Program-made: the position numbers and the translations under genes
In this document: one piece after another, positions 27,530 through 48,870 of the stretch
Layout: each line of letters begins with the position of its first letter
How positions within the stretch are numbered: the stretch's first letter is position 1
The notes under the pieces: generated by a model
The model's input: only the letters and a program-made list of their open reading frames with translations
Told to the model about the DNA's origin: nothing
Database searches by the model: none
Source of the DNA: Chryseobacterium sp. Leaf180
Lineage (GTDB): Bacteria > Bacteroidota > Bacteroidia > Flavobacteriales > Weeksellaceae
Direction: 5' to 3'
Length of the DNA stretch: 64,000 bases
Assembly: GCF_001424585.1 (NCBI RefSeq)
Contig: NZ_LMPJ01000001.1
Coordinates: forward strand, 977,100 to 1,041,099

Positions 27530-27560
27530 TCAGTATTTTATTTAGAATAATTAAAAACAA

Positions 27561-27568
27561 TATATTTG
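27561..27568 (+). promoter_or_regulatory. -7 box of the TonB-dependent receptor gene
   Basis: TATATTTG matches TAnnTTTG and ends 15 bases before ATG 27584. The TTG at its end is not a start codon. Confidence 0.65.
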
Positions 27569-44187: not shown

Positions 44188-44601
44188 TTAAGCACAGTAC
44201 TCATCATACGCCGCCTGAAGATTGGCCGCAATCGCACCTGCAGGATTTCCTTCAATGTGATGTCTTTCCAGCATGTGAACCAATTCGCCATCTTTGAAGA
44301 GCGCTACACAAGGTGAACTTGGAGGAAAAGGAGCCAAATGTTTTCTGGCTTCAGAGACTGCTTCAGTATCAAAACCTGCAAAAACAGTCGTTAAATTATC
44401 CGGTTTTTTGTCTCCTGTAAGAGAATATACAACGCCTGGTCTTGCCGCTCCTGCTGCACATCCGCATACTGAGTTTATCACTAAAAGTGTGGTTCCCGGT
44501 TTTGCCAAAGCTTCTGTCACTGCTGATGGTGTCGCCAAATCCTGAAAACCTTTATCTGTAAGCTCTGCCTTCATCGGCATTACCAAATCTTGTGGATACA
44601 T
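44188..44601 (-). CDS. BrxA/BrxB family bacilliredoxin
   Basis: A 137-aa thioredoxin-fold protein with the CGC active site in VINSVCGCAAGAARPGVV (near residue 53). In Firmicutes these proteins remove bacillithiol from mixed disulfides; Bacteroidota homologues are thought to serve similar low-molecular-weight thiol chemistry, but the thiol here is unknown. SPCVALFKDGELVHMLERHHIEG (near 99) completes the family pattern. Confidence 0.9.
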   Translation of the reverse strand: MYPQDLVMPMKAELTDKGFQDLATPSAVTEALAKPGTTLLVINSVCGCAAGAARPGVVYSLTGDKKPDNLTTVFAGFDTEAVSEARKHLAPFPPSSPCVALFKDGELVHMLERHHIEGNPAGAIAANLQAAYDEYCA

Positions 44602-44623
44602 ATGTTGAATTTTAAATTAGATA

Positions 44624-44631
44624 CAAATTTA
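44624..44631 (-). promoter_or_regulatory. -7 box of the bacilliredoxin gene
   Basis: On the minus strand TAAATTTG, matching TAnnTTTG, 22 bases before the ATG at 44601. Confidence 0.5.
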
Positions 44632-44775
44632 CAAATATTAAAAACAAAATTCAATTCAAAATAACTATTAGGAAATGAAGAGCTAAGGCATTAAAATCAT
44701 ATTTTAATTTTTAGAACCATTATAAACTATCAGATATGTTATGCAATTTTTGTTAATTGTTGTTAAAATTTTTCA

Positions 44776-44783
44776 TATATTTG
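44776..44783 (+). promoter_or_regulatory. -7 box of an orphan transcription unit
   Basis: TATATTTG is identical to the receptor-gene box at 27561. A TTTTTG at 44747-44752 could be the -33 element (spacer about 23). It faces a 170-base stretch with no annotated gene that ends in a strong stem-loop. Confidence 0.55.
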
Positions 44784-44797
44784 AATCGATTCTAATA

Positions 44798-44860
44798 ATG
44801 AAGTATGATAAAAATTTATTAATTGATCCTGTTTACAGGATTTCCCCTCCTAATTTTTAG
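44798..44860 (+). CDS. Candidate 20-aa micro-ORF in the orphan transcript
   Basis: ATG to TAG encodes MKYDKNLLIDPVYRISPPNF. The ATG is 14 bases after the -7 box, close to the 15-17 bases seen at the DUF2795-like, TonB-receptor, response-regulator, mutL and miaE genes. The peptide is not a signal peptide or membrane helix; the end RISPPNF is distinctive. The hairpin at 44826-44841 falls inside the ORF. It could be a leader-type or free-standing micropeptide. Not recognised; conservation would decide. Confidence 0.35.
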   Translation: MKYDKNLLIDPVYRISPPNF

Positions 44861-44921
44861 AGAGTTGCTTTTTAAAACCATGAAGACAGGAAGCAATTAT
44901 TTAAAAATTATTTTTTCAACG

Positions 44922-44950
44922 AAAAGCCCGAAACAATGTTTCGGGCTTTT
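44922..44950. terminator. Strong terminator stem shared by the orphan unit and the dcw operon end
   Basis: AAAAGCCCGAAAC (44922-44934) and GTTTCGGGCTTTT (44938-44950) pair perfectly around AAT; each arm supplies the T-run for its strand. It can end the plus-strand small transcript and, 54 bases past the GatB/YqeY stop, the long minus-strand operon. Confidence 0.85.
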
Positions 44951-45004
44951 CTAATCAAATCGATATGTAATGGTACTATATCCTAAAAATAAAAGACTTT
45001 AAAA

Positions 45005-45451
45005 CTATGAAAGAAGCTTTTTAGCCATGGCTGAAATGCTTTTCCCGTCAGATTTTCCGGCAAGATTCTTAGAAGCAATTCCCATCACTTTTCCAAGATC
45101 TTTCATAGATTGTGCTCCGGTTTCATCAATGATGGTTTTCATCTCAGCTTCCAATTCTTCATCCGTCAGCTGCTGCGGAAGAAATTTTTCAATCACTTTC
45201 ACCTGCGCATCTTCCACCTCAGCGAGATCATTTCTTCCCTGTGCAGAAAACTGCTCAGAAGAATCTTTTCTCTGCTTGATCATTCGCTGAAGAATAGCAA
45301 TCTCCTGCTCCGGCGAAACTTCTGCGCCACGAGCTTCTGTTTTTAATAATAAAATCTGAGCTTTTACGGCACGCAGCGCGTCTAAAGCCGTTTTATCTTT
45401 TGCACGCATCGCTGTTTTTACCGCTTCGCTGATTATTTCTTCTAAACTCAT
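45005..45451 (-). CDS. GatB/YqeY domain protein
   Basis: A 148-aa YqeY-type protein: a free-standing version of the tail domain of the GatB/GatE amidotransferases, of unsettled function. Marks: RAKDKTALDALRAVKAQI near residue 17, EQEIAILQRMIKQRKDS near 47 and the C-terminal MKDLGKVMGIASKNLAGKSDGK. It follows ftsZ by 15 bases and closes the dcw cluster, a placement common in flavobacteria. Confidence 0.88.
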   Translation of the reverse strand: MSLEEIISEAVKTAMRAKDKTALDALRAVKAQILLLKTEARGAEVSPEQEIAILQRMIKQRKDSSEQFSAQGRNDLAEVEDAQVKVIEKFLPQQLTDEELEAEMKTIIDETGAQSMKDLGKVMGIASKNLAGKSDGKSISAMAKKLLS

Positions 45452-48805: not shown

Positions 48806-48870
48806 TTTATACCGATTTGATTTTTTACTTAATTAATTTAAATTTTCCCTTCTTCATTTTTCCAGATCAT

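Follow-up and report, generated by a model that had tools for sequence, protein, structure and literature searches.

A predicted small RNA gene of Chryseobacterium with conserved complementarity to a second small RNA

The window, a 64,000-nucleotide stretch of Chryseobacterium sp. Leaf180 DNA, contains what its conservation shows to be a real small RNA gene, widespread in Chryseobacterium. The predicted transcript, RNA A, carries three blocks complementary to a second small RNA, RNA C, which is encoded elsewhere in the genome. With moderate confidence, we regard RNA A as a base-pairing partner of RNA C, most likely a decoy or sponge that would imitate a translation start. In one subclade, RNA A also contains an 18-codon open reading frame with a coding signature.

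The RNA A gene and its surroundings

RNA A lies on the forward strand between a Disulph_isomer gene (PF06491, 44188–44601) on its left and a YqeY-like gene (PF09424, 45005–45451), belonging to the ftsA-ftsZ-yqeY operon, on its right, both on the reverse strand. The 403-bp gap between them (44602–45004) has no open reading frame of 60 or more amino acids, in line with the preliminary description, which had seen no normal gene here. A −7 promoter box, TATATTTG, is read in the sequence at 44776–44783 (most relatives have TAAATTTG); the presumed transcript starts at 44789, as judged from the promoter spacing, and ends with the terminator at 44950. The box had been called identical to the promoter of a TonB receptor, and the same letters are indeed found at 27561–27568, before a gene that is TonB-receptor-like as judged by eye. 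The box alone is weak evidence, since TATATTTG occurs eight times in the window, with 3.25 copies expected.

Several further features are present as first described. An ATG at 44798 opens the 20-amino-acid micro-ORF MKYDKNLLIDPVYRISPPNF (44798–44860, stop codon at 44858–44860), inside which a perfect 6-bp hairpin (44826–44841) is followed by CCCCTCCT at 44844–44851, and a perfect 13-bp stem pairs 44922–44934 with 44938–44950. The distance from promoter to ATG had been likened to that of real genes; 22 bases separate the start of the box from this ATG and 23 in the TonB-receptor-like gene, the sole gene compared. A second ATG, at 44805, opens the frame MIKIY. Not recorded before were a long interrupted hairpin of 11+11 bp in the fold of 44851–44910, absent from the alignment of relatives, the position of the terminator at the end of the opposite operon as well and the complementarity to a second small RNA.

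The predicted fold of 44792–44956 has an energy of −47 kcal/mol (z −6.0; none of 200 shuffles equals it) and leaves the UUCCC motif of the window copy unpaired between two hairpins. Comparison of the long and short forms of RNA A by alifold gave no consensus structure other than the terminator, and long-form relatives have another sequence between block 2 and UUCCC, where the window has its 6-bp hairpin. The check for a conserved peptide or stem proposed earlier goes against the unit in part only: relatives do not keep the stem of the micro-ORF, but they do keep the sequence blocks of the RNA and its terminator. A possible helix at GUUUUUAGAAU of long-form copies was also considered (mean 8.6 bp in 17 copies, against 7.6 ± 1.3 in shuffles) and is too weak to claim.

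The terminator hairpin (44922–44950) has T-rich ends on both strands, serving RNA A on the forward strand and the ftsA-ftsZ-yqeY operon on the reverse strand; this double use is probable because the terminator matches of relatives adjoin yqeY. Next to it, on the reverse strand, lies element D (44951–44983), a conserved block in the 3' UTR of the yqeY operon. With up to three mismatches allowed, it is found at all 130 genus flanks, core letters being altered in two, and at yqeY in at least ten loci of other genera. Element D complements the ftsA start region; in the window, the site AATCAAATCGGTAT in the ftsA 5' UTR (48809–48822, reverse strand) is its 14-nt complement, with one G-U pair. The complementarity of ATATCGATTTGATT of element D to this region extends over 14 nt in 14 of the 16 loci holding both and over 11 nt in the remaining two, with both parts on one strand in every case; among 2000 shuffled versions of one of these regions, none reaches 14 nt. 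This would fit an RNA derived from the 3' UTR that feeds back on ftsA, a possible autoregulation for cell division.

Conservation of RNA A in Chryseobacterium

A DNA search of 173 Chryseobacterium genomes gave a match in just 52, own genome included, and what matched in relatives were short pieces only, usually from the terminator, or else from the AT-rich 5' portion; plain BLAST thus hides the unit. YqeY was found in all 173 genomes, and 130 loci (30 loci and 100 regions) were fetched from those with their yqeY place listed. At 120 of these 130, the RNA A unit, consisting of the promoter, a 5' block, a start-codon block and mostly UUCCC, is present beside the terminator of the ftsA-ftsZ-yqeY operon; 119 copies were read directly and one was placed by a sequence model of RNA A alone, made from 34 copies that include the window copy. 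The retention of this place indicates that the unit is more than chance.

The same model places RNA A 0.4–1.6 kb off, on the same contig, in six exceptions, and on another contig in a seventh. Genome G143 has a match (E=2.1e-8) whose place is not listed, another genome has a weak match only (2.2e-4) and a last one has none, its yqeY flank holding a degenerate remnant. Across the genus, the model matches 171 of 173 genomes at E ≤ 0.01, a figure that includes matches at the RNA C locus. One locus, L141, was excluded from the reading as the wrong site had been picked; the model finds the unit there. Extra RNA A-like copies were observed elsewhere in two genomes, at three loci; two of these copies are shortened, retaining the promoter, block 1, the AUG block, a terminator and a block like element D.

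Block 1 of the window copy, ATTCTAATAAT, occupies 44789–44799 (ATTCTRAAAAC in relatives) and complements GUUUUUAGAAU of RNA C. With the promoter box and start-codon block as anchor, which located 116 of the 130 loci without requiring TTCT, TTCT is present in all 116, followed by A (43) or G (73), each able to pair with U; behind other promoter-like boxes in the same flanks it is present in 7 of 82. The earlier pattern used for the 119 copies did require TTCT, its constancy in that set being by construction. Block 2, ATGATAAAAATTTATTAA (44805–44822), holds the five-residue frame MIKIY and complements AAUAAAUUUUUUUUCAU of RNA C with one mismatch. It is the likely counterpart of AUGAAAAAA..UUAUU in relatives, in an alignment that is not certain. 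Block 3, TTCCCCTCCT (44842–44851), faces the GAGGGAA loop of RNA C; UUCCC is present in 107 of 119 copies and the exact UUCCCUC in 94. The window copy deviates from consensus in all three blocks.

At 27 yqeY loci from other genera, the unit was not found (best E 0.036). Matches of the model somewhere in 53 of 147 other family genomes are weak (best 2.1e-5) and were not counted as RNA A. A 20-letter piece of the unit was found in 42 stretches, 33 labelled Chryseobacterium, two Weeksellaceae and seven other taxa. At the site itself Rfam gives no match at gathering score and weak, chance-level ones below it. The covariance check proposed earlier, against 6S-Flavo and Flavo-1, places the site in neither family: 6S-Flavo (RF01685) matches nowhere in the window at its gathering score and, at 44580–45020, not even up to E=10, and Flavo-1 (RF01705) has none in the window at gathering score and none at the site. 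Elsewhere in the genome there is a 6S-Flavo candidate at C1:738251-738354 (49.7 bits, below the cut-off of 85), and Flavo-1 has 21 matches outside the window, 16 of them over the cut-off. The earlier suggestion of a free-standing RNA of no known class is thus supported, with no Rfam gathering score reached and promoter and sequence blocks kept across the genus.

Conserved DNA without any RNA function, that is, a promoter or operator plus the terminator of the opposite operon, might leave a similar trace: the relatives' terminator matches lie against yqeY, and block 1 overlaps an operator-like imperfect palindrome, GAAATGATTC. We consider this explanation very improbable, as UUCCCUC, NUG-AAAAAA and the coding signature described below are all downstream of any such operator. 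Moreover, in C. formosense RNA A has its own terminator with another gene behind it, and two further loci have two tandem terminators.

A Fur-type operator was considered in this context and left unproven. The block TTTGAAATGATTCTAAA resembles an inverted repeat, and TTTAGAATNATTCTAAA, at up to two mismatches, occurs 26 times genome-wide, whereas its reversed control occurs eight times. An inverted repeat, TTTAGAATAATTAAAAA, at 27541–27557 directly precedes the TATATTTG box of the TonB-receptor-like gene and is a possible Fur-type operator; a weaker likeness to it is found at 44709–44725. Among 15 TTTAGAATNATTCTAAA sites viewed by eye there is no clear iron gene besides the TonB-receptor-like one, and the published Fur box is a different one (PMC7976709).

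RNA C and its complementarity to RNA A

RNA C, about 86 nt in length, is encoded next to a DUF3810 gene (C1:1520091-1520211 in the own genome; L230:1494-1581, forward strand). Its gene has a promoter-like TATTTTTAC, and the RNA a 5' hairpin whose loop contains GAGGGAAC, a U-rich core, AAAUUUUUUUUCAUCAUUUGUGUUUUU, and a terminator that includes a run of T; the core reads UUUUUUUUCAUCAUUUGUGUUUUU. The RNA is nearly invariant among 14 aligned genus copies. By BLAST it is matched in all 173 genus genomes (in G135 and G143 only weakly). Of the 147 others in the family, 107 have a match at E ≤ 0.001, some of them weak; with a structure model, C-type copies are recovered from 25 of 28 genomes that were picked across 22 genera. 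Several RNA C loci come from one genome twice in some of the sets analysed, and genome counts exclude these doubles. Further copies with other terminators were observed in several genomes (L377–L379, L381–L384). RNA C reaches no Rfam gathering score (best below it: E 0.024, 21 of 58.7 bits), its core is absent from viral contigs and, as a text string, the core was met in one paper, which is unrelated.

The loop motif GAGGGAA is present in RNA C of 35 genus genomes (30 best BLAST matches and five more) and in none of the 23 readable, distinct C-type copies from other genera (26 rows, of which two were duplicated and one masked). The C-type copies read in G135, which is 73% complete, and in G143 are weaker and have no GAGGGAA, although G143 has a match to RNA A. 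In G042, RNA C is retained and RNA A absent.

The relation between the two RNAs is apparent in the own genome, where the best match of the RNA A model is the site itself (E=1.1e-5; this copy was in the model) and the second best is the antisense strand of RNA C (C1:1520112-1520172, E=3.6e-4). The antisense of RNA C is also matched in seven of eight further genomes, the one without a match being G042. Blocks of RNA A are the reverse complement of blocks of RNA C, in antiparallel order, within a likeness to the RNA C antisense that spans about 60 nt: AUUCURAAAAC would pair with GUUUUUAGAAU, NUG-AAAAAA..UUUAUU with AAUAAAUUUUUUUUCAU and UUCCCUC with the hairpin loop GAGGGAA. The start codon of RNA A is covered by UUUUUUUUCAU of RNA C. 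Block 2, the start-like one, has low sequence complexity.

RNA C of the own genus pairs better than the mean of other C-type RNAs with all 119 RNA A copies, by a mean of −5.5 kcal/mol, and is the single best of 26 for just 21 of them. Compared with 60 shuffles of RNA A, the pairing has a median z of −2.4 and is negative for all 119 copies, 36 of which beat every shuffle. For the window copy, four of 60 shuffles are as good as the real one, three C copies from outside the genus give a better duplex with it than the RNA C of its own genome does, and co-folding yields a net −10.5 kcal/mol, against −14.6 to −16.8 in three relatives. Conserved complementarity to a small RNA is a property of the genus; the window copy alone is no better than some ordinary gene starts, its duplex of −28.6 kcal/mol being equalled or beaten by seven of 49 such starts in the window.

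Among the variant states of the three blocks, 12 preserve the pair with RNA C and 15 break it, 12 of the latter in block 3. The A-to-G bias in block 1 could partly be ordinary transition bias. The ordered pattern GAGGGAA..GUUUUYAGAAY occurs 112 times in the DNA fetched, 1.24 Mb with some overlap, 38 times at RNA C and 74 times on the antisense of RNA A (70 assigned by rule and four by eye), and nowhere else; the latter are expected, because the pattern comes from RNA A. None of 30,000 shuffles of RNA C has GAGGGAA and GUUUUYAGAAY in this order. In G077, a duplicate of RNA A is oriented divergently from a C-like module (29 bits, E=0.017), the sole match of the RNA C model in 60 sources.

A shared origin might by itself account for the likeness over some 60 nt, with RNA A a trans-acting small RNA that targets mRNAs through UUCCCUC; a C-rich seed is known from RsaE, and the frequency of UUCCC and its exposure between two hairpins in the window fold would suit such a role. 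We judge this improbable, since all three blocks, and not a seed alone, follow RNA C, and the loop GAGGGAA of RNA C is seen solely in the genus that has RNA A.

A short reading frame in RNA A

The start codon could be aligned in 118 copies, two loci, L141 among them, not being alignable there and the window copy being entered with ATG 44805; it is ATG in 104, GTG in 12, TTG in one and ACG in one. In 45 loci (35 different sequences), it opens an 18-codon ORF, MKKTFxAFPxAxxLFNTx. Mapped on a tree built from the flanks, this ORF has 144 substitutions, of which 56 are synonymous, against 34.5 ± 4.8 under random placement (0 of 5000 as many), with 41, 32 and 71 at the three codon positions. Outside the conserved blocks, the values are 51 of 131, against 33.7 ± 4.7 (1 of 5000), and 39, 26 and 66. 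The 45 loci were chosen for an intact frame of 18 codons with FP at the motif, a choice which fixes the first and second codon positions there, and not the third. From this signature, we take the ORF to be translated in that subclade.

TTCCCTC inside the ORF has zero changes, third positions included (the first and second being fixed by the choice of frame), which suggests that the RNA letters matter besides the peptide. The 20-amino-acid ORF of the window has no counterpart in any copy read, and the alignment of its start codon is not certain; it cannot be retained as a conserved peptide. The idea of a dual-function RNA put forward in the preliminary description is supported for the family, by virtue of the 18-codon ORF, and not for the window copy. 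Both MKKTFxAFPxAxxLFNTx and MKYDKNLLIDPVYRISPPNF are, by eye, unlike a membrane span such as would be sought in a type I toxin-antitoxin system.

A tiny mRNA for the 18-residue peptide, with RNA C an antisense regulator lying over its start codon through UUUUUUUUCAU and no regulatory role for RNA A itself, would also account for the coding signature and for the retained start codon. We find this rather unlikely and rank it below the decoy or sponge. Outside the 45 loci, the ORF varies in length between 4 and 35 codons and is in some copies frame-shifted, whereas block 1 and mostly UUCCC stay. The invariance of the third positions of TTC CCT points to the RNA, and RNA C is present in other genera, where the 27 yqeY loci lack RNA A.

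Proposed circuit and related systems

In the arrangement we favour, RNA A would be transcribed from its own promoter and ended at the terminator, and its conserved job would be to pair in trans with RNA C. Pairing may begin between UUCCCUC and the GAGGGAA loop and spread to the start-codon block. The core of RNA C complements starts of the type ACAAAUGAUGAAAAAAAA, from which we infer that RNA C acts at gene starts. Block 2 of RNA A resembles an ordinary Bacteroidota gene start, A-rich with AUG AAA AAA, which is why we think of RNA A as a decoy: with one start-like block and two blocks that fit the Chryseobacterium RNA C, it would keep RNA C away from other mRNAs at their starts. RNA A of one subclade would additionally be translated into the 18-residue peptide, whatever part this may play. 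More tentatively, we propose a two-RNA circuit of Bacteroidota, in which a family-wide RNA C has a core antisense to a generic translation start, a genus-specific RNA A imitates that start, start codon included, to catch it, and the decoy became a translated 18-codon gene in one subclade.

Bacteroidota mRNAs are mostly without Shine-Dalgarno sites, and to our knowledge few small RNAs with known partners have been described in flavobacteria. A pair of RNAs this conserved would be a system for asking how pairing RNAs act on such mRNAs, and an ORF overlapping the pairing blocks would show the conversion of a decoy into a gene, or the reverse. In the literature searched, we found no description of RNA A, RNA C or element D, which is not proof of absence.

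Rfp18 of Flavobacterium psychrophilum is, like RNA A, a structured small RNA that stands by itself and is conserved within one genus of flavobacteria; it is described as acting on metalloprotease mRNAs, with no ORF or RNA partner named in that description (PMC9723704). 6S-Flavo and Flavo-1 are, like RNA A, small RNA families of this phylum but are located elsewhere in the genome. Enterobacterial RNA sponges, or anti-sRNAs, such as AgvB have a conserved part that complements a small RNA encoded elsewhere. RNA A does likewise, its sponging being predicted, but it differs by its start-codon block, to which a subclade adds a real ORF, and its partner RNA C is family-wide in Bacteroidota and below Rfam gathering scores. 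SgrS/SgrT, Spot 42/SpfP and RNAIII are dual-function small RNAs, and RNA A resembles them as a short RNA that combines a predicted pairing part with, in the subclade, a short ORF bearing a coding signature. It differs from them in that its pairing blocks are placed ahead of the ORF, over its start and inside it, and in that outside the 45 loci the ORF varies while the blocks mostly stay.
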